This document shows, piece after piece, positions 27,986 to 42,642 of a stretch of 64,000 nucleotides of DNA. Both the position numbers and the translations under genes were made by a program. The stretch lies in NCBI RefSeq assembly GCF_001050375.1, contig NZ_KQ130485.1:186001-250000 (forward strand). Direction: 5' to 3'. The notes below the pieces were generated by a model, which was given only the letters and a program-made list of their open reading frames with translations, searched no databases and was not told the origin of the DNA. Position 1 is the first letter of the stretch; each line of letters begins with the position of its first letter. Source of the stretch: Catenovulum maritimum. GTDB lineage: Bacteria > Pseudomonadota > Gammaproteobacteria > Enterobacterales > Alteromonadaceae.

Positions 27986-30900
27986 ATGAATCGTAAAACC
28001 ACTCGTGTTAAAGCAAATACGCCATTTTCTCACCCATTAACAACCACCAAATCATCAATTGCCATTGCGATATCGACAGCTTTATTCGCATCCAATGCAT
28101 TTTCAGCAACGACAGGGTCATTAGCTGATAGTTCGGTAGATAGTAATGGCGGGGCTACAATTTCAGGTGTTGGTGATGGTTCTAAAACCGCAAGTGTCGA
28201 TACTGTAACACAAAATACAATTATCGACTGGAGTACCTTAGGTCTAGCTTCGGATGAAACGATAAACTTTAATGGTGGTGTCGTTGACTCTGTCATACTC
28301 AACCGAGTGGTTGGTAACGATGCCAGTTTAATGGATGGTGCTGTTAACTCCTCCAATGTTGAGACGCTCATTTTTGTTAACCCAAATGGTATTACTGTTG
28401 GTAGTAATTTTAACAATACTGGCGCTTTAAATAGTAATTTGATGATATCAACTAAAGATATCGCAGATTTGACTGGTTACGATTCAGATGACAGCGACGG
28501 CATAGACGAAAATTTTGGTTTAACTCTGACCGACTCGGGGAACAATGCTGATATTACTATCAATGCAATTAGAGCAACGGTTAATGATGATAAGTTATTA
28601 AATATTGTATCTGAGGGTAATGTTACTATTACCAACTCTGGTTCAGGCACGGATACTCTAGGTGCTAACTACCTGACAATAACTGCAGATGGAAATGTTG
28701 ACGGTTCAGCGGGTGCTATTGCTGCCGATGGAGAAATATCAATTAGCGCTGCAGGCCTTGATGGCACAGATGGTGATGTCGATATAGAATCGGTAAAAGC
28801 GGGTGTCATATATATAGACGCAGCTGGCGATGTGTCTGTTTCTCAATCTGAAAGCACGCTTACGATAGGCCAAATTGAAGGTGCAAATATAGATTTAACC
28901 AGTGTCCAAAGCTTGGCTGGTGGTGCGGTTATTGTTAATAACCCAATTACAGCAACGACAGGTTCCCAAAGTGGTAAGAACACTGATTTCAGCGATGCTG
29001 ATGCGCATCTAATATCCGACGGCACAATTACGATCACTGCCTCTGATTCAGCAACTAATAATTTAGAAATAGGTTCAAGTGGTAATTTAATCCAAGTTAG
29101 TTCTGCTGGCGGAACCTTGACAACTTCAGGGACTAAAGTCGGAAATTTATATTTAGAGTTAGATGGCAGTCTTAACCTAGGCGATGTCACTGCTGCTGAG
29201 AATATACAAATTACAGGTGTAAATGATTCGGATCAGATCACTCAAACTGGCACACTTACGCTTTCTAAATCAGCGGGTGGTGAAATAGAGTTAGATTTTG
29301 AAGGCGCTGATGTTACCAACCTAGACGTAACAGTAAGTAACTCAAATGATTTAAGTATTACCGCGAACGATTTAACCTCAGCAACGATAGACGATACTAA
29401 TGTCGCAGACTTAACTATTTCTGCAGATGATATAAGCGCAGCAACTATTGCAAATACCGATGATATTTCTATCACCTCCGATTCTTTAGGCCTAGCTTCT
29501 GGCATTTCTGCTACTGGTCAAACTATTACCTTAAGTGTTGATGGCGCAATTAGTGGCGCTACCGGCACAGATTTTACTGCAGATACATTAGTGATTAATG
29601 GCTCTAATAGTTCAGGCACGTTTGAAACCGATGTCAATAATTTGAATTTAACTTCAGCTGGTAGTTTAGATGTTACCAATGATGGCAATTTAGTCTTAGG
29701 TGTTGCGACCGTTAATGGTGATACCAGCATATCTGCAGCAAACGCGGGCGATGATATTACCATAGGTAATTCAATGACAATTGCTAGTGGAGCCTCATTA
29801 TCACTCGATACCAGTGGTGCAGGTGAAATTATTATCAATGGTGCTGTTTCAGGTGACTCTGCAAGTGCGGGTACTTTGAACTTAGTCGCTGATAATATGG
29901 ATATCAACTCAGCTATTGATACGGGGGTTGTCACCATAGATTCAGCAACGGCTGATGCCAACATTGATTTAGGTGGCGCAACCGGCACATTGAATTTAGA
30001 TTCAACCAGTCTCTCTAATTTAACAGCGGGTACAAATGAACAGAATGTTCAGATCTCAGATGCTGCAAATACCGGAACTGTTACTATCAGTTCAAGTATT
30101 AACAATGCAAATGTAAATCTTGATATTAATTCAAGCGCATTAAATATTGATTCAGCTGTCACAGCGAAAACACTTGATATAGATTCAACTTCAACAGTGA
30201 CCACAACAGCAACGGTTAGCGCTGATGATATTAGTGTTGTTGCCAGTGGCGATGTCACTTTATTAACTGATGTTGATACTATCGATATTGATGCGGGTAC
30301 AGGCAATATCTCAATTACAGAAACAGATGCGCTAACACTGAATGATATTACAACCACTAGTACGGCCACTAATGCGATTGTTATTAGTTCTGCTGCGTTA
30401 ACTTCTAATGCTTCAACAAGCATTGAAACTGGTGCCGGTGGTCAAATTGGATTAACCACAACAGGTGATGTTGATATCAATGTGACAGGTGGAGCAACTT
30501 TTAATGCTTTATCTGATGGCGTTGCATTAGCAATTGATGCTGGAAGTAATAGTTTAACTTTCACTGATGCGGTTGGGGATGATAATGCCGATGATACCCT
30601 GACAGTTACTAGTTTAGATATTCAATCTGCTACAGATATTAGCACAGGTGCAGATGCAATTACGGTAACCGCTGGGGACCTAGATTTATCAGCGACGGGA
30701 ACCTTAACCGTTGCAGGCGCATTAAGCGCAACAGGCGATGTTACGCTGTCTGGTAATACAGTTAGTTTAGCAGCAGTGACCTCTGATTCAGATACTAGTG
30801 GCGCTGGAGATATTACGATTGAAGCCGGTACGGGCGATTTAGCTTTATCTGGTACTTTAACAACAAATAACAATGATATTGATATTCGAGGCTTATCAGA

Positions 30901-33900
30901 TTCAGATACCTTGGGCTTAGGTTCAGGTACTGGAGATGTCAATATATCGCAAGCAGAGCTCGATTTGATTCAAGCTGGTACAGGTGTTATTACATTTGGT
31001 AAAGCAACAGGTGGTGCGGTTGATATTGATGCGGTTGACTTAGATACAACTACAACTCATTCAGGCGTTGATATTTTATCTGCTGGCGCTATTGCTATCG
31101 ATAATGCGTTAAACATTGGTGCGGGTGGTGATAACGATCTAGATCTGCAAGGTGCGAGTATTTCGAACGGCGGTAGTGCGGTTATTACTGCTAATGAGCT
31201 AGATATAGTTACAACCGGAAATGCAGTCCTGAGTGGTAGTAACGCTTTAGATGGCACGCTTACCGCAAATATTGGTGGTGACCTAACGGTTACTAATACA
31301 GCTGGCTTAGATTTAGGCGCTGTTACGACAACATCTTTTACCCTGACTACTAATGGTGCGGTTACAGATAGCGGCACAGTGATTGCCACAGGTACAACGA
31401 CCATAGATTCAATGGGCAACGACATTACGTTAGATTCAGCAGCTAATGATTTTGAAACGATTAATTTAGATGGTGCCAATGTCACAGTTGTTGATGTCGA
31501 TTCTATAGATCTTGGCACCACGGACGCGACTGGTAATTTATCTATAACAGCAGCAGGCGATGTGACTGACTCTGGCGTTATAACTGTAACAGGAACAACT
31601 AGCGTAACAAATGCTAATGCAGATGTTATTTTAGATGGCGATAGTAACAGCTTTACAGGTGCAGTTACTGTTACGGATAACTCTGGATCGGAAGGCACGG
31701 TTGATGTGACCTTAGATAATGGTTCTACAGACCTTGATCTGACGGTTAATTCTGTTGGTGATGTGACTGTTGAAAGTGCTGGCGCTTTAGGTTTAGGCGG
31801 CTTTGCAGCGGGTGATTTCACTGCCACAAGCTCAACAAGCATGAGTAACATAGCGAGCCTGAGAATTGATGGCAGAGCTGATTTAAACTCGACTGGCGAT
31901 ATAGTTCTAACAAACACAGGTAACAATTTTAATATTGTTGATGCATCTACGTCTGGCGATGTAACGCTGGTAGATGAGCGAGAGTTTATTTTAGGTGATA
32001 TTACAGCTACCAACTTAACCGCGACATCTAATGTTGACAATGTTGGTACTGGAGAAAGTTTAACTCAGGATGCAGGTACAACAATTAATGTAACTGGAAC
32101 CACAACAGTTGCTACTGGTACGAATGGTTCGAATGATGCTGAGTTAACTTTAAATGAAGCTGGTAATGATTTTGGAACTTTAATTGTTAGTCGAGGTAGC
32201 GACGTTACCATTAATGATGTAGATGATGTCGTGATCGGTGGCGTTACAGCCTCAGGTGATCTAGACATCACAGCAGGCGGTGCGGTAACTGACTCAGGCA
32301 CTATCACAGTAACAGGTGATACGAGTGTGATGGCGACAGGCTTTGACATTACGCTAGCGGATGCCTCAAGTGACTTTGGTACGATAGATTTAGATGGTAC
32401 GAATGTTTCAATTGTTGATGTAGACGATGTTGATTTAGGTGTGGTTACGGCTACAGGCACATTAGATGTGACAGCAGGTGGTGCGGTAACTGATTCAGGT
32501 ACAGTTGACGTAACAGGCGCCACGACAGTGACGGCAACCGGTTTTGATATCAGCTTAAATACAGTGGATAACAACTTTGATAGCGTGATGTTAGATGGTG
32601 CGAATATTACAGTTGTTGACGAAGATGCTTTAGATATCGGTATGACGACTGCCTCAGCACTGACGATTACAGCGAGCGGAGATGTAACAGATACGGATGT
32701 AATTACGGTATCGGGTACCACAACCATTGATACTTCGGGTGCAAATGGTGATATTGACTTAAGTACAAATACACAAGTGTTAAATACTTTAGTTGTGAAT
32801 GCAGGCACAGGTGATGTGGATGTAGATGAAACAGACGCATTAACGCTTGAGGTTACGGCAGCAGCAGACGTCACCATTGATTCAGTTGGCGCGTTAACCT
32901 TGAACGCAGGCTCAATGGATAACCTAACGGTTAGTGCTGCAGACTCAGTTGCAGATGCAGGTGCATTATTAATCGTTAATACAGCGAGTATTGATACCTC
33001 AGTTGCAGGCGGCAATATAGACTTAGCGAATACAGCGGACTCACACTTAATTACGACGTTAGTGGCGAATGCAGGCGTAGGCACTGTTGATGTCGATACC
33101 AATGCGGCATTATTCCTAGGTAATATCACAGCCTCAGCGTTAACCGCAGATGTAAATAATGGCGGCCTAACAAGTACAGGTACGTTAACGGTATCGGGCT
33201 TAACAGATATAGATACCTCACACTCAAATGGTGGCATTGCGTTAAATAACACAGCACATAGTTTATCTAGCTTACAAGTTAATGCGGGCACGGGGAACGT
33301 TGACATTAATGAAGCTGATGCACTAACTCTTGCCGTGACAGCAGCGGGTGATGTAACACTTGATTCGGTCGGTGCATTAACCTTGAACGCAGGTTCAATG
33401 GCGAATCTAACGGTAACGACATCAGCTTCGATTACGGATGCAGGTGCGTTAACGATTACAGATACAGCGAACTTAACCACCTCAAATGGCGTAGTTGATT
33501 TAGATAACAATACACACAGCTTAACCAATTTACTTGTGAATGCAGGTACAGGTGTGATTGATATTGCGGAAACGGATAACTTAAACCTAGGTACAACGAC
33601 AGGCTCTGCGCTGACAATTACAGCAGGCGGAGATGTGACAGATACGGGGGTTGTAACGGTATCAGGTACAACAAGCATTAATACCTCGGGCGCGAGTGGA
33701 GATATTGACTTAAGCAATAATGCTCAAGTATTGAATACGTTAGTTGTGAATGCGGGCACAGGTGATGTTTATGTTAATGAAACAGACGCATTAACACTTG
33801 AAGTGACCGCAGCGGGCGATGTGACAGTTGACTCGGTAGGAGCGTTAACCTTGAACGCAGGTTCAATGGCTGACTTAACGGTGACAGCTGCGAGCTCAGT

Positions 33901-36196
33901 TACAGATGCAGGCGCGTTAACGTCAACAGGTACAGTGAGCATAGATACCTCGGCTGCGAACGGCAATATTGATTTAGACAATAATGTTCATACGTTAGCG
34001 AACTTTGGAGGTAATGCAGGTACGGGTACGATTGATATCTTAGAGTTAAATGACTTAAATCTAGGTACAACGACGGCGTCGGCATTAACGATAATCTCAG
34101 CGGGCGCGATAACAGATACGGGTGTAATTACGGTATCAGGTACGACGACGTTAGATACCTCAACGGGTAATGGTAATGTTGTATTAGATGATGCAGCAAA
34201 TAGCTTTGCTGGTTCAGTTGCTGTTAATGCAGGAACGGGAGATGTTACTTTAGTTGATTCAACTGCGCTTGAATTAGGAGCGACAACGGCTAATATGTTA
34301 ACAGTAACTAGTGGTGGTGATTTAACCGACTCAGCGACCGTGACAGTCAATACGTTAGATTTTGATTCAACCGGTGGTGTTACTTTAGATGCGATTGATG
34401 TTTCAACCATAAATGATTCAGCTGCTCAAGGCTCTGTTGCTATCACAACAACAGCTAACTCTGGTGATACACTGACAGTTAATGACATCATAATTACAGA
34501 CTCAACGCCTGTTAATACGAATGAATCTGATTACTCAGTGTCAATCACAGAGACTCAAGGTAGTGCAGAAACTGGAATTACACTTGCGGGTGATATTAAA
34601 GCGACTGATGGGGCGAGTGACTTATACTTATCTAGTGTAAGTGTGAGTGCAGGTAGCTCAAATGAACGTGAGATTGATTCAGATGGTAATGCATTATTAA
34701 AAGCTAAGGCATTTACTTTCACTGCTCATGGTAACCTAGGTAGAACTAATCCTATTGATATTGACTGGAAAGACTCTACAGCTTCATCTGTAAATCGCTT
34801 AACCGTTTCACTAGGTGATCTAGATGCAGTTGATATAGATAATGATACAAATCACTCAAATAATAATAGCGATTTTGATGATGTTTCATTAAATATCAAT
34901 ATTGCAGGTTTTGATTTAGAAGACGAAGATAATTTGCAAGGTGGTAGTCGTGAAATAGCGATTAGCTTCACAACTGAAAATTCGTCAGATACCTCAGCTG
35001 GACCGGATCTAATTGATGCAACAAACGACACCTTGTCGGGTAACTTCTTAGAGTTAAATTACTTTAATCGAAATACATTTACTTCTGTGAATAACAGAAT
35101 TGATCAATTAGAAGAATTATTAGGTGAAGGATTTGATTCAGATAATGGTCAAACGGTAGCCGCTTACATTTCATACTTAGTGAATGGTGATGATGGTATA
35201 AATGGATTTGTTGATATTGATGGTGATTTAGTCACAGCAGGTATTAACGCTTCAGACTTCTTCGATGGAACTGGCGGTTCATTTACTACTATTACTAAGT
35301 TAGGTAATCAAATTGCTTCAATTGCTGATTTCTTTGATAGCGCTGATGCAACTGCGACAGCTGCGGATGGATCTGATGTTAGTTATGCAACACTTAAATC
35401 ATCTGTGAGAGCTGGCGATTTAAATAGCGACTCAACTTCAGACACATTAGCGAATGAAATTGCCGCAATTCAAACTGATATTGATAACAATGAAACAGCT
35501 TCAGATAGTGCAGATACAGCATTAGATAATAGAGTAACAGAAGTTGAAGGCACATTAACTGGTTATACTTCTGCTAGCACAGTAGCTGCCGCAGTTACAG
35601 CGAACGCAACGGCAATCAGTGACGAAACCACTCGTGCGACGGCAGCTGAATTAGCGAATGCAACGGCAATCAGTGACGAAACCACTCGTGCAACCGCTGC
35701 TGAAATGGCGAATGCAACTGCAATCAGCGATGAAACAACTCGTGCAACCACTGCAGAAACAGCTAATGCAACTAAACTAGCAGCATTAGCCGCATTCACT
35801 ATGGATACAGATGGAAACATTACATCAACTACTATCAATAATGATGTGAATGTCACAGCTGGAGGCACAGGTGCGAGCTTATCTAATGCAATTGCAGATG
35901 TGACAGCTAACGCTACTGAAATTGCGAGTGTGAAAAACACTGCTAATATTGCCAATGCTAAAGCAGATGCGATTGCAGACTTTAGAGTGGGAGAAGGTGA
36001 TACCGCTGCAACAACAGTTGAAGAAGTTAATAACAGCAATGTCGTATTGAAAGCGGTTGATGCAACAGCAGCAACAGTTGGAGATGAAACATTAGGCCAA
36101 TTAGGCAATGATGTACAAGACATTGAAGACGATAAGAATACAGGTAACGGATTCTTAGACTTCTTCAGAAAATTGTTTGGTAACTCAGAGCAATAA
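27986..36196 (+). CDS. giant two-partner-secretion exoprotein (TpsA, filamentous hemagglutinin type)
   Basis: The 2736-residue protein has an extended signal peptide (to about residue 41). A TPS secretion domain follows with the hallmark NPNGI at residues 132-136. Next is a very long Thr/Asp/Ser/Ala/Val-rich repeat region expected to form a beta-helix. Residues ~1550-2070 contain three closely related blocks of about 160 residues sharing SVGALTLNAGSM. Near residues 2538-2592 an 18-residue unit, ANATAISDETTRATAAEL, is repeated three times and predicts a coiled coil. The C-terminus ends in FRKLFGNSEQ, with no toxin domain that I recognise. It should be exported by the TpsB at 38571 and act as an adhesin or surface filament. 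AGGA precedes the start. Confidence 0.92.
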   Translation: MNRKTTRVKANTPFSHPLTTTKSSIAIAISTALFASNAFSATTGSLADSSVDSNGGATISGVGDGSKTASVDTVTQNTIIDWSTLGLASDETINFNGGVVDSVILNRVVGNDASLMDGAVNSSNVETLIFVNPNGITVGSNFNNTGALNSNLMISTKDIADLTGYDSDDSDGIDENFGLTLTDSGNNADITINAIRATVNDDKLLNIVSEGNVTITNSGSGTDTLGANYLTITADGNVDGSAGAIAADGEISISAAGLDGTDGDVDIESVKAGVIYIDAAGDVSVSQSESTLTIGQIEGANIDLTSVQSLAGGAVIVNNPITATTGSQSGKNTDFSDADAHLISDGTITITASDSATNNLEIGSSGNLIQVSSAGGTLTTSGTKVGNLYLELDGSLNLGDVTAAENIQITGVNDSDQITQTGTLTLSKSAGGEIELDFEGADVTNLDVTVSNSNDLSITANDLTSATIDDTNVADLTISADDISAATIANTDDISITSDSLGLASGISATGQTITLSVDGAISGATGTDFTADTLVINGSNSSGTFETDVNNLNLTSAGSLDVTNDGNLVLGVATVNGDTSISAANAGDDITIGNSMTIASGASLSLDTSGAGEIIINGAVSGDSASAGTLNLVADNMDINSAIDTGVVTIDSATADANIDLGGATGTLNLDSTSLSNLTAGTNEQNVQISDAANTGTVTISSSINNANVNLDINSSALNIDSAVTAKTLDIDSTSTVTTTATVSADDISVVASGDVTLLTDVDTIDIDAGTGNISITETDALTLNDITTTSTATNAIVISSAALTSNASTSIETGAGGQIGLTTTGDVDINVTGGATFNALSDGVALAIDAGSNSLTFTDAVGDDNADDTLTVTSLDIQSATDISTGADAITVTAGDLDLSATGTLTVAGALSATGDVTLSGNTVSLAAVTSDSDTSGAGDITIEAGTGDLALSGTLTTNNNDIDIRGLSDSDTLGLGSGTGDVNISQAELDLIQAGTGVITFGKATGGAVDIDAVDLDTTTTHSGVDILSAGAIAIDNALNIGAGGDNDLDLQGASISNGGSAVITANELDIVTTGNAVLSGSNALDGTLTANIGGDLTVTNTAGLDLGAVTTTSFTLTTNGAVTDSGTVIATGTTTIDSMGNDITLDSAANDFETINLDGANVTVVDVDSIDLGTTDATGNLSITAAGDVTDSGVITVTGTTSVTNANADVILDGDSNSFTGAVTVTDNSGSEGTVDVTLDNGSTDLDLTVNSVGDVTVESAGALGLGGFAAGDFTATSSTSMSNIASLRIDGRADLNSTGDIVLTNTGNNFNIVDASTSGDVTLVDEREFILGDITATNLTATSNVDNVGTGESLTQDAGTTINVTGTTTVATGTNGSNDAELTLNEAGNDFGTLIVSRGSDVTINDVDDVVIGGVTASGDLDITAGGAVTDSGTITVTGDTSVMATGFDITLADASSDFGTIDLDGTNVSIVDVDDVDLGVVTATGTLDVTAGGAVTDSGTVDVTGATTVTATGFDISLNTVDNNFDSVMLDGANITVVDEDALDIGMTTASALTITASGDVTDTDVITVSGTTTIDTSGANGDIDLSTNTQVLNTLVVNAGTGDVDVDETDALTLEVTAAADVTIDSVGALTLNAGSMDNLTVSAADSVADAGALLIVNTASIDTSVAGGNIDLANTADSHLITTLVANAGVGTVDVDTNAALFLGNITASALTADVNNGGLTSTGTLTVSGLTDIDTSHSNGGIALNNTAHSLSSLQVNAGTGNVDINEADALTLAVTAAGDVTLDSVGALTLNAGSMANLTVTTSASITDAGALTITDTANLTTSNGVVDLDNNTHSLTNLLVNAGTGVIDIAETDNLNLGTTTGSALTITAGGDVTDTGVVTVSGTTSINTSGASGDIDLSNNAQVLNTLVVNAGTGDVYVNETDALTLEVTAAGDVTVDSVGALTLNAGSMADLTVTAASSVTDAGALTSTGTVSIDTSAANGNIDLDNNVHTLANFGGNAGTGTIDILELNDLNLGTTTASALTIISAGAITDTGVITVSGTTTLDTSTGNGNVVLDDAANSFAGSVAVNAGTGDVTLVDSTALELGATTANMLTVTSGGDLTDSATVTVNTLDFDSTGGVTLDAIDVSTINDSAAQGSVAITTTANSGDTLTVNDIIITDSTPVNTNESDYSVSITETQGSAETGITLAGDIKATDGASDLYLSSVSVSAGSSNEREIDSDGNALLKAKAFTFTAHGNLGRTNPIDIDWKDSTASSVNRLTVSLGDLDAVDIDNDTNHSNNNSDFDDVSLNINIAGFDLEDEDNLQGGSREIAISFTTENSSDTSAGPDLIDATNDTLSGNFLELNYFNRNTFTSVNNRIDQLEELLGEGFDSDNGQTVAAYISYLVNGDDGINGFVDIDGDLVTAGINASDFFDGTGGSFTTITKLGNQIASIADFFDSADATATAADGSDVSYATLKSSVRAGDLNSDSTSDTLANEIAAIQTDIDNNETASDSADTALDNRVTEVEGTLTGYTSASTVAAAVTANATAISDETTRATAAELANATAISDETTRATAAEMANATAISDETTRATTAETANATKLAALAAFTMDTDGNITSTTINNDVNVTAGGTGASLSNAIADVTANATEIASVKNTANIANAKADAIADFRVGEGDTAATTVEEVNNSNVVLKAVDATAATVGDETLGQLGNDVQDIEDDKNTGNGFLDFFRKLFGNSEQ
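32880..34200 (+). repeat. long-period internal repeats of tpsA
   Basis: Three related DNA blocks begin at the GCGTTAACCTTGAACGCAGG-type segment at 32891, 33374 and 33842, spaced 483 and 468 bases (161 and 156 codons). Identity stays high at synonymous positions, which indicates recent duplication or gene conversion inside the gene. Confidence 0.8.
35600..35779 (+). repeat. 54-bp tandem repeats in tpsA (coiled-coil stalk)
   Basis: Units start at 35600, 35654 and 35708, with a partial copy from 35762. Each encodes an 18-residue ANATAISDETTRATAAE-type unit with regular hydrophobic spacing. The first two copies are almost identical in DNA. Confidence 0.88.
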
Positions 36197-36202
36197 AAAC
36201 TA

Positions 36203-36223
36203 AATGGGAGCTTAGCTCCCATT
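36203..36223 (+). promoter_or_regulatory. perfect hairpin between tpsA and the sapC-like gene
   Basis: AATGGGAGC (36203-36211) and GCTCCCATT (36215-36223) pair perfectly around a 3-base loop, seven bases after the tpsA stop. No T tract follows, so it is more likely an mRNA 3'-end stabiliser or partial terminator than a full stop. Confidence 0.6.
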
Positions 36224-36255
36224 ACTACCAAGAATAATAATTAAAGGACGCCAGT

Positions 36256-36960
36256 ATGGAATTAGGTATATATCGTAAAGTTGAAATATTAAATAAAGAT
36301 CTTCACTTTAATCATAAAGTAACACCGCTTAAAAATTATCAATTCTCTAGTTCACTACGTGAATGCGTGATAACCGCAAATGAATTTTATGAGTGCGCAA
36401 AATCACTTCCTATTTTATTTACAGAGTCTAAATCAGGCAGTTTAACGGCCATTACATTATTAGGCGTTGAACCAGAAAAAAATGTAATGCTAGATGAAAA
36501 TTTACAATGGAGAGCAGGGGAATACATTCCTGCATTTTTACGTCGATATCCATTTGTTTTCGTACAAAACGACAACAGCTTAATGCTTGCATTGGATGCC
36601 GCATCAGAGGCAGTAAATAAAGATGATGGCCAAGCGTTGTTTGAATCTAACGGTGAAGCGACATCATTTACTAAAAAAGTGATGGGTTTTATGAAAGACT
36701 TTCAGCAGTCATGTAAAAATACAGAATCAATTGTTGCTACCATAAATGAACTTGGCCTTTTAGAAGATGCCAAAGCTGAAATGGTTTCTGCAGGAAAAAA
36801 ATACTCAATTAATGGCTTTAAGCGTGTTAACGAAGAGAAACTAAAAGCTTTATCTGATGAGCAAACTCTTGAATTAGTACGCTCTGGTGTATACAACCTG
36901 ATCGTAGCGCACTTAATGAGTTTATCTAATTTTAGAAAGTTATCAGTACTAGCAAACTAA
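36256..36960 (+). CDS. SapC family protein
   Basis: The 234-residue soluble protein matches the SapC family by its EFYECAKSLPILFT segment, the SLTAITLLGVEPEKN block and WRAGEYIPAFLRRYPFVF (about residues 88-105). The family is named for a protein from the Campylobacter fetus S-layer secretion locus. Its biochemical role is not established to my knowledge. It has no signal peptide, so it is presumably cytoplasmic. It sits 59 bases after tpsA and 20 bases before the lipoprotein gene, so it is probably cotranscribed with them. I infer a role in handling or expressing the giant exoprotein. AGGA stands before the start. Confidence 0.83.
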   Translation: MELGIYRKVEILNKDLHFNHKVTPLKNYQFSSSLRECVITANEFYECAKSLPILFTESKSGSLTAITLLGVEPEKNVMLDENLQWRAGEYIPAFLRRYPFVFVQNDNSLMLALDAASEAVNKDDGQALFESNGEATSFTKKVMGFMKDFQQSCKNTESIVATINELGLLEDAKAEMVSAGKKYSINGFKRVNEEKLKALSDEQTLELVRSGVYNLIVAHLMSLSNFRKLSVLAN

Positions 36961-36980
36961 ATTAAGCTAAGGAATAAAAC

Positions 36981-38429
36981 ATGCAGCATTTACTAAAAAG
37001 AAATAGCTTGTTTTTGATTTTATTGCTGAATGGGTTATCAGCTTGTTCTGACTCTGATTCTGCAAGAAAACAAATTAATTACTCATTTGTTGCGGAAGAT
37101 GCTGCTTTAATAGGTTTAGATGTTTCTGATAATGCTGGCAATCAGGCAACAGAATCTTCTCCTGGTACATATTCATTTGATGCTGGGGTAGTACCACAGC
37201 CTCCAGTTACTTTTGTTACCAGAAATACCGACTCTGAGCCTTTTAACAGTTTTCAAGATTTGGATGCCAGTGGTGATCTTTCTGAAGCCGATATTGCTTA
37301 CAATGTTGGATTTTCACTTAAGTTTATTCCTCAAATAAACCCAGACGAAGCCGGTATTACATCTGTTTTTGCTAACCCAATAACCGCCTTGATTCCTGCA
37401 CAAGGTACCACTGGTGGTTTGGGAGGGTTAAATTTATCCGAAGTGAATAGCGCATTATCTGGCGGTGTTAAAAATGCTGATCCTGTATTGCAAACTAAAC
37501 TGCAAAAAATAGCGGCTAAGATCACAGCAGTGCAAGAGGCTATTGTCGCCTCAACAGGGCAAAAAGCTTCTAAAACTAATTTAACGAGTATTAATTTACT
37601 TGATAGATTTAACCTCAGCTCAGATACCTTGACGGATGATACTAAATTAAATCAACTTGTTGATTCCGCGTTAGATTCATCAGGGCTAAGCACGGAAAGT
37701 ATTCAAGTTGTCAAAGCAACCGCCACTCAAGTCGGAACTAACATTAATAAAGCAACTAGCCCAACCAAGGGTAATTTATTTGAGTCGGCAATTAAATTAG
37801 TTCAAACCGAAATAAAGCAAACTACGACAGTGGCTCAAGTGAGTAGTTTGATTTCTGAAACCAAGCTACTGACTGCGTTAACTCAAGTTGTATCCGGCAT
37901 AGATTTGGCTGAAACGGTCGCAAGCAGTGGCGGTAAAGAAGCGTTTGTCGCATCACTTTTGCTTGTTCCTCCTATGGATGCTAATGGCGATATCTTTCCG
38001 CAAGGTAACGACGTGATACAACGTGGCATGAGTGACTTTGCTTTAAGCTTAAATAAAACCAGCAATGTGATCACCATTGCCGATAATGGTGCTTATTTTT
38101 CTGGTGCTGGGGTTCAGCTCAGCTATTCAGATACAAGCAAAGCATATGGCGGTATTAGTGGTAACGACGCTTATGCTATCTCTTTAAACGCGATTGATTT
38201 AGTCGGTGTTGAAGGGTATTCATTATCTCAGCTAAGGCTAATATCTTTTTGTATTGACTATGATACAAGCACTCAAACATGCGGCGTAAATAACCAGGGC
38301 CAGCAAAGCTATGCTTTAGCCACTAAAGCAGAAATCTGCTCAGCTTATGATAACCAACCTCTGAATGAGAGTATTTTGCAGAGCATAAATGCGAATTACG
38401 GTGATTCTTGCTCTACGTCCAATAATTAA
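36981..38429 (+). CDS. lipoprotein with EF-hand-like loop, 482 aa
   Basis: A lipoprotein signal ends at the lipobox LSAC (Cys22). About residues 92-107 read FQDLDASGDLSEADIAY, an EF-hand/dockerin-like calcium loop. The rest is a long Thr/Ser/Gln-rich helical region (residues ~130-330) of unrecognised type, then a C-terminal beta-like part with four or more cysteines (FCIDYDTSTQTCG, EICSAYD, DSCSTSNN) that could form disulfides. It starts 20 bases after the sapC-like gene and ends before a strong terminator. It may be a surface anchor or secretion accessory for the TpsA exoprotein. That is inference from position only. Confidence 0.7.
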   Translation: MQHLLKRNSLFLILLLNGLSACSDSDSARKQINYSFVAEDAALIGLDVSDNAGNQATESSPGTYSFDAGVVPQPPVTFVTRNTDSEPFNSFQDLDASGDLSEADIAYNVGFSLKFIPQINPDEAGITSVFANPITALIPAQGTTGGLGGLNLSEVNSALSGGVKNADPVLQTKLQKIAAKITAVQEAIVASTGQKASKTNLTSINLLDRFNLSSDTLTDDTKLNQLVDSALDSSGLSTESIQVVKATATQVGTNINKATSPTKGNLFESAIKLVQTEIKQTTTVAQVSSLISETKLLTALTQVVSGIDLAETVASSGGKEAFVASLLLVPPMDANGDIFPQGNDVIQRGMSDFALSLNKTSNVITIADNGAYFSGAGVQLSYSDTSKAYGGISGNDAYAISLNAIDLVGVEGYSLSQLRLISFCIDYDTSTQTCGVNNQGQQSYALATKAEICSAYDNQPLNESILQSINANYGDSCSTSNN

Positions 38430-38457
38430 ACAAAATATCCGCATTTATTTATTAAAT

Positions 38458-38493
38458 AATCCCGTTTAAGCATTGAGTTTAAACGGGATTTTT
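38458..38493 (+). terminator. intrinsic terminator after the lipoprotein gene
   Basis: AATCCCGTTTAA at 38458-38469 pairs with TTTAAACGGGATT ending at 38490, followed by TTTTTGT. It separates the tpsA-sapC-lipoprotein unit from tpsB, so tpsB should have its own promoter or rely on read-through. Confidence 0.85.
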
Positions 38494-38570
38494 GTATACA
38501 CTCATAGTTGCTCATTTTCTAATCCTATTCAACGATAAAAATAATAAGTTGGATTTTATAAAGGCTAACT

Positions 38571-40586
38571 ATGAATCTTCGTACTCTCGCTATTGCGCTA
38601 CTTTCTACCTACTTCTCAACACAAGCCACGGCCAATACCATTCAAAAACTAGATAAAGACCAACAAGAAATCGACAAAGTGAACGCGGCTGACTTAGAGA
38701 AACCCACATCAATCGAAGCTTTAGAGATAGATCAAAACATTCAACGCCAAGCTGAAAGTAAAATGACTCAGCAAGTTAAATTTCGCTTAAATAGCATTAA
38801 CCTGCAAGGTAATGAAACGTTAGCCAAAGCAGAACTCATAGATGTGATTAAACCTTATGTGGGCAAACTGGTCACAGTGGCTGAGCTGAAAGAAATTGCG
38901 CAAAGAGTTACCTTGCTATATCACAACAAAGGTTATCAAACTTCACGTTGCATAGTTCCGGAACAACAAATTAAAAATGGCGTTGTTACGCTTAAGATGG
39001 AAGAGAACAAGTTAAACCAAATTAAAATAGTGGGTGATAATAGCTTTGAATATGAAACTAGGTTATTTCTTCGATATCTAAATGACCTGAGCGGTAAAAT
39101 AATTCATGCGCCAACATTAACTAAGCGACTCGCTAAATTAAACTTTTTACCTTCGGCTAAAATTAAGCCAAGGTTATCTAATGCGGGCTTTGGTAAAACT
39201 GACCTAATTCTAGAAATTAATGAGATTAAAGCGACTAGCGTTATCTCTTTATACAACAATGCATCAAGATTAACTGGCGATGTTAGAGCTAACTTAGGTG
39301 GAATTTTTGTAAACCCAACCGGACGTGGTGATTACCTACAATATGGTGTATCGATTGATCCGCAAGAAAATCGTAACTTCAGCTCGTTAACCGCTAAATA
39401 TGTCATGCCATACGGCATACAAGGCGGTCAGATTCAGTTTGACTACGCTTACATGAATTACCGAGTCGCTCCTGAGATATTAAACCCAGATACATTTGAA
39501 GCCAATGGTTCTGGCACTTTAATGAAGTTGCAATATTCACAACCTTGGGATTGGTTAGGAGACAACGCCAAATACGGTTACTCAGCTGAAATTAAAGAAT
39601 CGACAAACCAACAAATTCAGCATACTAATATTAACGTTAATGTGCCTATTACTAGCTTAGATGAATGTCCAACTAATCAAGTTGTCGAAAACGAAGCCAC
39701 TGGGCAAAGAATTTGTGTGTACGATCACCCGGATTTATTGGCTGGCTTTAAATGGTTAGATACTAAAGAAAAAATCTTGGCAGTGAGTGCTTTTGCCAGT
39801 AAAGACTTTAGATACAAGTTATTTGACCAACAGGCATACACCAAAACCCAGTTTAAATTAACTAAATCGTTAGAAGGCGCGCTTGGCGCTTTAACTCAGG
39901 CCGAGATTAATGACAAATTTAGAGTCAAAAATGCGCAAACCCAGCAACAAGAATTTAGAACTCTAACAGGCCCTGTTGGTAACGAAACCTTGATGCAAGC
40001 TGATTTTTGGAAAATCTACTTTGATTTGACTCATTATCAGCAATTTACGCCAAACTTAAACCTTATCGTGAATTCACATTTTGAATACACACCAGAAAAA
40101 GCACTTCCTAGCTCATATAAATACGGTGGAGCCGATTCGGGTATTTGGGGTGGTAATTTAGACTTAGCACTGCAATATAAACTAACTGACAGCTTTAATA
40201 TCCAACTAGGCTATCACTTAGAAACCGCAGTTAATTACACATCAGACAAAGACTATACAGACGCAGTACAAACAACAGTGAATGTAAAAGATGATAATGG
40301 CGACGATGTCCTAGTGCCTATTTTAGACTCACAAGGCGAGCCAACGGGTGAGTTTGAAGTCGCGACAGAAACGATAACGGTAGAAGATGGTAAAGTTCAG
40401 CACTTTAGTTGCGGCATAAAAACCGTTGATATTAATAGCTATTTTACTTGTAACGTGACTTATCCATACCTACAAGCTAATTATAAACAAGGTAACCATA
40501 GCTTTGGGGTTAACTTGAGAACAAAACCTGAGGTTTTCGAGTCTCGCAGAAGAAGCTTAACCGTTTCTTACGCATATAAGTTCTAA
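38571..40586 (+). CDS. TpsB outer-membrane transporter (FhaC/ShlB family)
   Basis: This is a 671-residue Omp85-superfamily two-partner-secretion transporter. It has a Sec signal (to about residue 21) and a charged helical linker (22-70). Two POTRA domains follow, the first starting FRLNSINLQGNETL near residue 74 and the second INQIK-like (NQIKIVGDNSFEYE) near residue 150. A 16-strand barrel follows, with the family VNPTGRGDYLQYG segment near residue 245. The terminal residues SYAYKF form an outer-membrane targeting signal. An extra cysteine-containing loop (LDECPTNQ...RICVYDHPD) near residues 363-390 is unusual. It should export the giant TpsA encoded three genes upstream. Confidence 0.93.
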   Translation: MNLRTLAIALLSTYFSTQATANTIQKLDKDQQEIDKVNAADLEKPTSIEALEIDQNIQRQAESKMTQQVKFRLNSINLQGNETLAKAELIDVIKPYVGKLVTVAELKEIAQRVTLLYHNKGYQTSRCIVPEQQIKNGVVTLKMEENKLNQIKIVGDNSFEYETRLFLRYLNDLSGKIIHAPTLTKRLAKLNFLPSAKIKPRLSNAGFGKTDLILEINEIKATSVISLYNNASRLTGDVRANLGGIFVNPTGRGDYLQYGVSIDPQENRNFSSLTAKYVMPYGIQGGQIQFDYAYMNYRVAPEILNPDTFEANGSGTLMKLQYSQPWDWLGDNAKYGYSAEIKESTNQQIQHTNINVNVPITSLDECPTNQVVENEATGQRICVYDHPDLLAGFKWLDTKEKILAVSAFASKDFRYKLFDQQAYTKTQFKLTKSLEGALGALTQAEINDKFRVKNAQTQQQEFRTLTGPVGNETLMQADFWKIYFDLTHYQQFTPNLNLIVNSHFEYTPEKALPSSYKYGGADSGIWGGNLDLALQYKLTDSFNIQLGYHLETAVNYTSDKDYTDAVQTTVNVKDDNGDDVLVPILDSQGEPTGEFEVATETITVEDGKVQHFSCGIKTVDINSYFTCNVTYPYLQANYKQGNHSFGVNLRTKPEVFESRRRSLTVSYAYKF

Positions 40587-40722
40587 AAACCTCAGACTAA
40601 TCGCGGTATCTAACGTATTTTCAGGTATCGCGGTTCAAATTACGACTTTCCCTTTCCCTGTTTTAACATGTAAAATGTTTTGTCTTGCTTTAAAAATCTT
40701 CTGAATATTAGAAAGGATGCTA

Positions 40723-42642
40723 ATGGTGAAAAACCTTACTGCCATTTTGTTGATAGTGCTTTGTACATTTACGAACTTAGCGATAAGTAAACCTCAATTT
40801 ATACCAACCAAAGCTTTTGCATCAAAGCCGGATGTCAGCAAAATTTTACTCTCGCCAGATGGCAAACACATAGCTATGCTACTTAAAGCAGAACAAGGCG
40901 ACGTAAAAGCTACCGTACTACAATCGGTAAACTTACAAAATTTTGAATCAAGCTTTCTAACCTATGCAGAAAATAAAAAATATGTCATGACAGACATAGC
41001 TTGGTTAGACAATGAAAATATTATTGTTGATGTTAAATATCCAGCCTCTCGTCGAGGTACTCCGGTAGATGAATATCGCGTCGTTAAAATTAATATTTTT
41101 GAAAAAAAGCTTAAATCGGTTATTCCAAAATCGACGTTATCTCGATTAGATTATGTGCCCAATGTGCTATCTAATGTATTAAGCATAGTGCCGGAAGATC
41201 CTAACTATATTATTATGCAAATTTCGGGTCATATGCACACAGGTGAGCCGAGTGTTGTCCAAATCCCACTGACAGACAAAGCGAGAACTCGCTTTCTTGA
41301 AAGAGCCGAAACTAACATTTTTCACTGGAAACTAGATCAGCAACGTAATGTACGGATAGGCATATACAGAGATAAAACCCATTACAAAATTTTAGAACGA
41401 AAAAATAAAGACGAAGAATTTCGTACCTTATGGAAGTTTGAAGCTTTTAGTGCCGAAACGGTTTGGCCGTTAGGTTTTGATCTCGATCCAAATATTCTTT
41501 ATGTACAAGCGCTACACAAGGGTAAAGATGCCATCTATAAAGTCGATTTGACGGACAAAGATTTAAAGCTAAATCTGGTTTATGCAAAAGAAGATTATGA
41601 TGTAAGTGGTTATCTAACCCGCTCAAATAAAACTGGCGAAGTAATAGGTGCTGGCGGTTATATATGGGATAAAGCGCGAGTTCGGTTTGAAAAAGCAATT
41701 GATAAAGCCTTACCAGATAACGACAATTACCTAGTTAGCTTTAGCCAAGATGAAAATAAATATATAACCCTATCAACCAGTGATACAGAAGCGGGTGTCT
41801 ACTTAGTTGGCGACCGCAAAGCTAAAACTATGGATATAGTTGCTTACAGATACTCAGACCTAAAACCAGAATTAATGGCAGCTAAAGAAAAAATAAGCTA
41901 CAAAGCGAGAGACGGGTTAACAATAGAAGGCTACCTAACCTTGCCGCAAGCTAGCTCAGGTAAAAACCTGCCTACCTTAATTTTCCCTCATGGTGGACCG
42001 ATTAGCTACGACAATGATGGCTTTGATTATTGGACTCAATTTTTTGCCAATAGAGGCTACGCCGTGCTGCAAATGAATTTTAGAGGCTCAGCTGGCTACG
42101 GCTTTCAGTTTATGCAACAAGGCTTAAGAGCTTGGGGCCAAGCAATGCAAGACGACGTTGAAGATGGCACCAAATGGATTATTGAACAAGGTGTTGCCAA
42201 TCCAGATAAAGTTTGTATTGTCGGTGCTAGTTACGGTGGTTACGCAGCATTAATGGGCACAGTGAAAACGCCCGACTTATATAAATGTGCTGTCAGCTTC
42301 GCTGGAGTAAGTGATATAGAAGCTTTAGTAAAAGCACACAGAAACTTTGTTAACTACGAAATAGTGAAAAAACAAATCGGCGATGACTACAGCAAACTGT
42401 GGGAACACTCACCGTTAAAACATGCTGAAAAAATCAAAGTCCCTGTACTGTTAATTCATGGCACCAAAGACAGAGTTGTGAGAGTTGACCAAAGTGAAGA
42501 TATGTTTGATGAATTGGACGATTTAGACAAAGACGTCGAATATATAGAACTTGATGGCGGTGACCATTACTTGAGTAATGCCGACCATAGATTAACGACA
42601 TTTAAAGCTATGGAAAAATTCCTAGCCAAACAACTACTATAA
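40723..42642 (+). CDS. S9 family prolyl oligopeptidase-like serine peptidase
   Basis: The 639-residue protein has a signal peptide (MVKNLTAILLIVLCTFTNLA), an N-terminal seven-bladed propeller region (to ~375) and a C-terminal alpha/beta-hydrolase peptidase domain. The catalytic triad is visible as S503 in GASYGGYAAL, D583 in HGTKDRVV and H615 in GGDHYLS. It probably cleaves oligopeptides (acylaminoacyl or dipeptidyl peptidase type) in the periplasm. I use the ATG at 40723 because GAAAGG lies at a proper distance, while the ATG at 40717 follows it directly. It is a single gene, not obviously linked to the TPS locus. Confidence 0.9.
   Translation: MVKNLTAILLIVLCTFTNLAISKPQFIPTKAFASKPDVSKILLSPDGKHIAMLLKAEQGDVKATVLQSVNLQNFESSFLTYAENKKYVMTDIAWLDNENIIVDVKYPASRRGTPVDEYRVVKINIFEKKLKSVIPKSTLSRLDYVPNVLSNVLSIVPEDPNYIIMQISGHMHTGEPSVVQIPLTDKARTRFLERAETNIFHWKLDQQRNVRIGIYRDKTHYKILERKNKDEEFRTLWKFEAFSAETVWPLGFDLDPNILYVQALHKGKDAIYKVDLTDKDLKLNLVYAKEDYDVSGYLTRSNKTGEVIGAGGYIWDKARVRFEKAIDKALPDNDNYLVSFSQDENKYITLSTSDTEAGVYLVGDRKAKTMDIVAYRYSDLKPELMAAKEKISYKARDGLTIEGYLTLPQASSGKNLPTLIFPHGGPISYDNDGFDYWTQFFANRGYAVLQMNFRGSAGYGFQFMQQGLRAWGQAMQDDVEDGTKWIIEQGVANPDKVCIVGASYGGYAALMGTVKTPDLYKCAVSFAGVSDIEALVKAHRNFVNYEIVKKQIGDDYSKLWEHSPLKHAEKIKVPVLLIHGTKDRVVRVDQSEDMFDELDDLDKDVEYIELDGGDHYLSNADHRLTTFKAMEKFLAKQLL

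Follow-up and report, generated by a model that had tools for sequence, protein, structure and literature searches.

In two-partner secretion (TPS), the exoprotein TpsA is threaded through the transporter TpsB, a step that is established for the family. We will examine here a TPS locus of Catenovulum maritimum in which two more genes, one of them coding for a protein of the SapC family, stand between tpsA and tpsB. The locus lies in a stretch of 64,000 nucleotides (contig NZ_KQ130485.1, positions 186,001 to 250,000; G000:C4:186001-250000 in the whole-genome search), hereafter called the window; genomes and loci are designated below by G and L numbers. The initial annotation of this stretch set it against TPS loci holding tpsB and tpsA alone, but extra partners are in fact known. 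The Haemophilus hmw1ABC locus encodes, like the window, a cytoplasmic third protein with the TPS pair; this protein, HMW1C, is a glycosyltransferase (PMC5422565), whereas no report of an activity was found for SapC. In Burkholderia bcpAIOB (PMC3415462), the exoprotein gene comes first and the transporter gene last, as in the window, the immunity protein BcpI is encoded where the window has SapC, and in some alleles the gene of a predicted outer-membrane lipoprotein, BcpO, is found just before the transporter gene, again as in the window. Finally, sapC is known from the Campylobacter S-layer locus sapCDEF, where it stands with the export genes of a surface protein, as it does in the window (PMC4943207); that locus uses type I secretion and no TpsB or lipoprotein gene was seen in it, whereas both are neighbours of the window sapC. 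We will argue that in the window SapC may act as a cytoplasmic chaperone or pilot before export and the lipoprotein late, at the outer membrane, a reading that we hold tentatively and place a little short of an even chance.

The four open reading frames (ORFs) are found at the positions and on the strand initially annotated, and together they make up an intact TPS locus on the + strand. The first, tpsA (27986-36196), codes for a cysteine-free exoprotein of 2736 residues; it is followed by sapC (36256-36960), coding for a 234-residue protein of family PF07277 predicted to be cytoplasmic, then by the gene of a 482-residue lipoprotein (36981-38429), and finally by tpsB (38571-40586), coding for a transporter of 671 residues. 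Read by eye, the start of each gene is preceded by a Shine-Dalgarno-like AAGGA or AAAGG. The same genes in the identical order are found in 4 of the 8 Catenovulum genomes, those of C. maritimum (G000), C. sediminis (G003), YM01 (G004) and DS-2 (G006), and the loci match the named records C. sediminis WS1-A and C. agarivorans YM01 and DS-2. The other four genomes of the genus lack TpsB, the lipoprotein and the TPS-type SapC. Indeed, TPS-type SapC (over 460 bits, the next SapC copy reaching 120 bits) and TpsB co-occur in the same four genomes, in which the gap between sapC and the lipoprotein gene is just 14-20 bp. A chance assembly is ruled out because the orthologues retain 64-67% identity to the window copy for SapC, which ranks first among the three partners compared, 57% for TpsB and 45-47% for the lipoprotein. 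The gene composition read in the window is thus real and conserved among the Catenovulum orthologues, and everything points to a true system for exporting a giant surface protein, to which two extra genes have been added.

The exact tpsA-sapC-lipoprotein-tpsB order looks like a trait of the genus: the conservation by which the initial annotation was to be judged holds in half of the Catenovulum genomes and was not found outside them. Among 196 related genomes, near full-length TpsB matches (57-59% identity) come from the three Catenovulum orthologues only, with 20 further genomes giving partial, distant matches; the POTRA_2 domain is present in 40 of the 196. A contig scan with two narrow N-terminal patterns, which says little on distant loci, returned only three other Catenovulum records. 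The idea that the pairing of SapC with TPS is itself a Catenovulum oddity is, however, overturned by a locus of another genus of the family (G079) and by linkage across the phylum. Within 395 family genomes, only the four Catenovulum genomes and G079 exceed 300 bits with the TPS-type SapC profile, and in G079 (L183, on a contig that is short) the end of a DUF5649 exoprotein gene is separated from sapC by 14 bp. Type VI secretion genes of the TssA and TssB types (Pfam; L183:1-3070) come directly after this tpsA-sapC pair; elsewhere, in G045 and G170 (L076, L166), a giant exoprotein and a TpsB-like gene are followed, by reading, by Hcp-like and VgrG-like ORFs.

To measure the linkage, a profile of the TPS-type SapC was run on 299 genomes across the phylum, and it finds SapC in 99 of them at a cut-off of E 1e-30. 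POTRA_2 was searched in 80 of the 90 SapC genomes outside the order (the ten dropped are among the weaker ones, though G701 scores above four that were kept) and is present in 62 of these 80. In eight of the 80, the distance between sapC and a TpsB gene is 6 kb or less, coordinates being compared by eye, against 0.51 expected. These genomes (G735, G716, G500, G531, G544, G564, G677 and G650) belong to seven families, and the Poisson tail for random placement is 7e-8, an approximate figure for which 3.9 Mb was taken as the size of most genomes and in which G544 and G564 are of the same genus. In all eight loci sapC and the TpsB gene are on the same strand; Pfam confirms POTRA_2 in 8/8 of the linked TpsBs and ShlB over the cut-off in 6/8, and the TPS domain is found in both linked exoproteins whose start was covered. 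When the surroundings of sapC were fetched for 60 of the 80 genomes, one locus per genome, 17 showed a TpsB, a DUF5649 exoprotein, an M50/SecA set, a set of an OEP protein with a LEPR-XLL protein, or an adjoining LEPR-XLL giant, a biased rate given that the eight TPS-linked loci were included on purpose; other ORFs over 1200 codons (for example in L280, L273 and L309) were seen outside this count.

Plasmids provide named examples. SapC matches were found in 42 plasmid records, of which 20 were viewed (Yersinia ruckeri is among those left out) and 18 are annotated in the stretch concerned; in 10 of these 18, a giant gene or type I secretion genes lie near sapC. The TPS cases are those of Thalassospira marina, Methylobacterium currus and Azospirillum brasilense. 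In T. marina, an shlB-type gene is followed after 15 bp by a 14-kb exoprotein gene, and 46 bp further by sapC; in M. currus, the corresponding spacings are 18 bp and 31 bp around a 13.7-kb gene, and sapC is followed by an IalB gene. Domain searches confirmed ShlB, POTRA_2, TPS and SapC in both runs. As in the window, the TPS pair directly adjoins sapC on one strand, but here tpsB comes first and no lipoprotein gene is annotated between. In A. brasilense, the transporter and the start of the exoprotein are annotated as short pieces, followed by a 15.4-kb gene and sapC. Two genomes that are distant from each other (L334:2783-3355, L260:8343-8978) have an IalB-family gene together with sapC and a TPS transporter.

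The giant protein near sapC is not always a TPS exoprotein. LEPR-XLL proteins are found in this position on the plasmids of Pseudosulfitobacter and Rhodobacteraceae M382, as well as in L219 and L190 (NCBIfam) and in L263, L264, L268 and L299 (motif). On Pseudosulfitobacter pDSM107133_a, sapC lies inside a giant surface-protein export cluster, like in the window, with HlyD, site-2 protease and SecA-like proteins where the window has TpsB; none of these three was found by Pfam among the window neighbours scanned. The SecA-like gene adjoins sapC on this plasmid, and in L261, L262, L266 and L219 sapC is accompanied by HlyD/M50-like and SecA-like proteins, the latter within about 4 kb (hidden Markov model search), which makes five SecA-like loci in all; the SecA domains were Pfam-checked in L262 and on the Pseudosulfitobacter plasmid. 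In 10 of the 60 fetched loci, the gene immediately preceding sapC is of the parvulin type, with a Pfam Rotamase match in L258. The plasmid gene (L314:9764-11788), beside sapC and a LEPR-XLL giant, is annotated as a prepilin peptidase and gives a strong SecA domain match, so that the label is probably a misannotation. In G192, a LEPR-XLL ORF of about 12000 codons extends across both L190 and L191 and runs off the contig end, divergent from sapC. Among the plasmids, those of Alisedimentitalea, Sphingobium, Aminobacter and Arcobacter carry genes 12 to 26 kb long whose distance to sapC is 0.3 to 4.3 kb, that of Arcobacter having type I secretion genes too and an FkbM methyltransferase gene after sapC, and in Campylobacter sp. 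RM16187 three type I secretion genes come after a SapC match. In Gemmobacter and Sulfitobacter, sapC has smaller VCBS or DUF4214 proteins nearby. The position of sapC with respect to the giant gene varies, since it is downstream in several loci and upstream or divergent in others.

SapC is thus not specific to TPS, and many loci connect it to quite other genes. It is found in 123 of the 196 related genomes, and in 36 of 63 Alteromonadales sapC locus rows, which include some duplicates, halogenase, cupin or TonB-receptor genes lie within about 1.5 kb, while the rest, TPS loci included, have none. Elsewhere sapC is found with TonB receptors and tryptophan halogenases, as on a Pseudoalteromonas plasmid with a TonB receptor and a halogenase, or alone. 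In L221 it is followed by a 2OG-Fe(II) oxygenase gene, and in G271 (L205:1477-3148) a tandem pair of sapC genes lies beside the end of a halogenase-like ORF.

A tree of 139 SapCs, built by a quick search and containing some long branches, was used to follow the gain and loss of these connections. The 13 TPS-linked rows need 8 label changes, at least five of them forced by well-supported branches; labels were taken from the stretch at hand, 16 of the 72 'solo' rows resting on under 5 kb, and the count stays at 8 when L281 and L285 are relabelled from solo to TPS. The Catenovulum SapCs fall in a 7-row clade (support 99) together with those of G478, G484 and G481, and their nearest kin (G478, G484) stand by a TolC/OEP-like protein and a LEPR-XLL giant. 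Because of these 8 label changes, the link of SapC with giant-protein export must have arisen or been lost several times, as one expects for a useful partner and unlike a single frozen operon. The connection of SapC with the export of giant surface proteins, which the initial annotation had drawn from one locus, therefore recurs in other bacteria.

The SapC of the window is a full-length member of its family (PF07277, profile positions 1-220 of 220, E 3.7e-64), and we take the SapC of C. fetus to be a member too. No signal peptide or membrane segment was found by hydropathy, in agreement with the cytoplasmic location first predicted. Pfam and NCBIfam report no family other than PF07277 in the window SapC, nucleic-acid-binding domains included, and a sequence search against solved structures gave insignificant matches only (E 0.34 and above). 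Three residues, H17, E43 and N76, are invariant in 40/40 aligned SapCs. No SapC was found in scans of viral contigs and phage records. In a literature search that left subscription papers mostly aside, we found no function for PF07277-type SapC, nor any paper on SapC with two-partner secretion, with an S-layer, or with a halogenase and TonB receptor. Two genomics papers on Campylobacter fetus refer to sapC incidentally, and SapC does not occur in the review PMC5422565.

The lipoprotein begins with a lipobox, LSAC (37035-37046), followed by a serine, both the cysteine and this serine being invariant in 4/4 orthologues; a serine in this position is expected to sort the protein to the outer membrane. 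The calcium-loop-like motif and cysteine-rich end noticed at the start are both real. The former, DLDASGDLSEAD (37257-37292), is the only match to the EF-loop consensus in the protein, and each of the four orthologues likewise has one such match, in the form of a DxDxSGDLSEAD loop; the EF-hand family model itself matches none of them (Pfam). The latter consists of four cysteines (residues 424, 434, 453 and 477; 38250-38411) kept in 4/4. No Pfam family was found for the window lipoprotein, two of its three orthologues giving a weak DUF4999 match (best E 0.0023), and a sequence search against solved structures gave insignificant matches only (E 0.34 and above). Its predicted model is poor, with a mean pLDDT of 41.6 from a four-sequence alignment. 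Among the 196 related genomes it is found in G000, G003, G004 and G006, with one weak match in G045 lying outside any TPS locus. The best comparison is probably with the Burkholderia BcpO, although BcpO has 73-74 residues against 482 for the window lipoprotein with its calcium-loop motif; deletion of bcpO abolished autoaggregation with BcpA still produced (PMC3415462). By this analogy, the lipoprotein of the window would be late-acting.

The client of this system would be the exoprotein itself. TpsA carries a filamentous-haemagglutinin N-terminal (TPS) domain (TIGR01901, 36.2 bits for a cut-off of 29.1) at residues 80-141 (28223-28408), with an NPNG motif at residue 132 that is present in C. 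sediminis too; the Pfam scan did not report the TPS model PF05860. It also contains 15 DUF5649 stretches by Pfam scan, the 13 matches of the genome search extending over 31274-34393; besides TIGR01901 and DUF5649, Pfam and NCBIfam reported nothing in it, LEPR-XLL included. The protein is rich in aspartate (11.4%) as well as cysteine-free. Only two full-length TpsAs are available in the genus, the DS-2 copy being cut by the contig end and the YM01 copy containing N runs. They measure 2736 and 3768 residues, a difference due partly to a coiled-coil-like repeat near the C-terminus (about 35400-36000 in the window; L068), and one repeat pattern matches 2 times in one species and 14 times in the other. 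The C-terminal motif NGFLDFFRKLFGN (36146-36193), in contrast with these variable lengths, is near identical in 4/4 Catenovulum copies, the final residues NGFLDFFRKLFG being fully identical, and endings loosely resembling NGFLDFFRKLFGN are found in three other DUF5649 TpsAs near sapC. The sapC-linked DUF5649 exoproteins of the window, L281, L285 and L183 have short hydrophobic-basic ends, such as FLDFFRKLFG, LFNRLFAKLF and GFSGFVSTLIKTLNF, which may be a retained tail or anchor. As for TpsB, its ShlB-type POTRA domain (PF08479, POTRA_2; 38781-39005) scores 69.9 bits for a cut-off of 24, and the ShlB barrel model PF03865 was not reported, while it passes the cut-off in six of the eight SapC-linked TpsBs elsewhere.

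Two hairpins flank the sapC-lipoprotein pair. The one at the tpsA/sapC junction (36203-36223), which had gone unmentioned, has no T run; it is found just 3' of tpsA in 4/4 orthologues, at the same position and with a quite different sequence. The other (38458-38490), at the junction of the lipoprotein gene and tpsB, is terminator-like, in a pattern scan that gave 9 sites in the window against 3.9 in shuffles. It is also present in 4/4 orthologues, but its T run is clear in the window copy only, so that the terminator proposed for tpsB, though plausible in the window, is unproven. The folding energy of the first falls below that of base shuffles (z -2.0 to -3.7); for the second the difference is less clear (z -1.1 to -2.7). 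Outside the locus, polB lies 5' of tpsA in the window (family search) and in G003 and G004 (by reading); the DS-2 contig starts within tpsA, and polB is hence out of view. After tpsB, the window has an S9-family peptidase gene (40717-42642), and the other three Catenovulum loci have a different gene, sulfotransferase-like by reading.

Taken as a whole, the proposed pathway would run as follows. TpsA would be made in the cytoplasm and, judging from its N-terminal signal region, would cross the inner membrane by Sec before being threaded through TpsB. SapC would stay in the cytoplasm and act on this very long, acidic and cysteine-free protein ahead of Sec export or in the course of it. Its most likely role would be that of a chaperone or pilot dedicated to this client, preventing TpsA from folding and passing it on to SecA. 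The lipoprotein would meet TpsA late, at the outer membrane, and help to mature or hold it, through a contact that is perhaps calcium-dependent. The hairpins could set unequal amounts of the products from one transcript, or separate the transcription of tpsB. A chaperone or pilot is favored over an enzyme because what the export-linked loci have in common is the great size of their surface client, because genes for SecA-like proteins and isomerases, which fit a pre-export or folding role of SapC, recur near sapC, and because no modifying-enzyme gene adjoins sapC in the window (ORF listing and Pfam of the neighbours).

Several observations weigh against this chaperone reading. Within the order, none of the 36 non-Catenovulum POTRA_2 places fetched, a set that omits contig-end fragments and the weakest matches, has a SapC. 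Of the 20 genomes over the DUF5649 cut-off, SapC stands beside the repeats in G000, G513 and G540 only, and although short contigs could hide some such neighbours, the candidate rule that SapC accompanies DUF5649 exoproteins was rejected on this 3/20. Outside the order, 43 of the 60 fetched sapC loci show none of the export signatures counted, and 5 of the 18 annotated plasmid loci (Thiodictyon, Terrarubrum, Sphingomonas, Marivivens and R. rubrum) have no giant-export neighbour. The SecA-like loci belong to a type of export other than that of the window, and the weaker SecA match in L275, L295 and L312, which are of one family, is 7 to 8 kb away from sapC and could be the housekeeping gene. 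The predicted model of SapC is poor (mean pLDDT 47.7, four sequences) and lends no structural support to a chaperone. Type I secretion works without Sec. A pure hand-over to SecA is thus not the whole story, because sapC accompanies type I genes in Campylobacter. On the side of the lipoprotein, complementation of bcpO restored competition but not autoaggregation (PMC3415462).

The main alternative takes SapC for an enzyme, or for the substrate adaptor of an enzyme, that modifies side chains of the exoprotein in the cytoplasm before export. We consider it rather unlikely, but it is still strong because halogenase, cupin, 2OG-oxygenase and methyltransferase genes adjoin other SapCs, the first two often with a TonB-receptor gene in the Alteromonadales rows and the last two in L221 and Arcobacter. 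It is also in line with the invariant H17, E43 and N76, and HMW1C, which glycosylates HMW1, sets the precedent of a cytoplasmic third TPS partner (PMC5422565). However, the window sapC lacks such a neighbour, and SapC matches the SapC model alone, with no solved relative. If SapC controlled instead the expression of the exoprotein (through translation, mRNA or membrane-stress feedback) and not the protein itself, one could understand why sapC is 3' of the giant gene in several loci and why hairpins are found on both sides of the sapC-lipoprotein pair; as Pfam finds no nucleic-acid-binding domain in SapC, and as sapC elsewhere precedes the giant gene or is divergent from it, this is improbable.

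The two other alternatives concern the nature of the locus rather than the action of SapC. With its exoprotein gene followed by those of a small protein, a lipoprotein and the transporter, the locus has an order parallel to that of bcpAIOB (PMC3415462), which could suggest a Burkholderia-type contact-dependent inhibition (CDI) set with sapC in place of the immunity gene. We regard this as very improbable: in contrast with the CDI motifs and variable C-terminus of bcpAIOB, a motif scan finds neither VENN nor Nx(E/Q)LYN in the two full-length TpsAs, and among the three partners compared SapC shows the highest conservation, unlike immunity proteins. The conserved TpsA C-terminus in 4/4 refutes the usual CDI form. 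That sapC and the lipoprotein gene are chance passengers inherited from the locus of a Catenovulum ancestor would agree with an exact order confined to a single genus, but both genes are found in 4/4 of the genus genomes with the TPS and are absent from the four without it, and sapC is linked to TPS outside the genus too; we give this explanation only a slim chance.

The main interest of the locus is therefore its SapC, which belongs to a wider pattern than the initial annotation could see. A broader proposal, possible though doubtful, is that SapC represents a family of export factors, so far undescribed, that serve oversized surface proteins in the cytoplasm. It would be a functional counterpart of SecB, taken up independently by TPS, LEPR-XLL/SecA-like, type I and TonB-receptor loci, where it would exert a common pre-export action on giant or bulky outer-surface clients. 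The recurrence of sapC beside the export genes of giant surface proteins turns an orphan name into a testable idea, and it raises the question of how bacteria maintain proteins as long as about 13000 residues in an exportable state. As the locus of the window is compact and self-contained, the effect of each of its extra genes would be measurable on one client.

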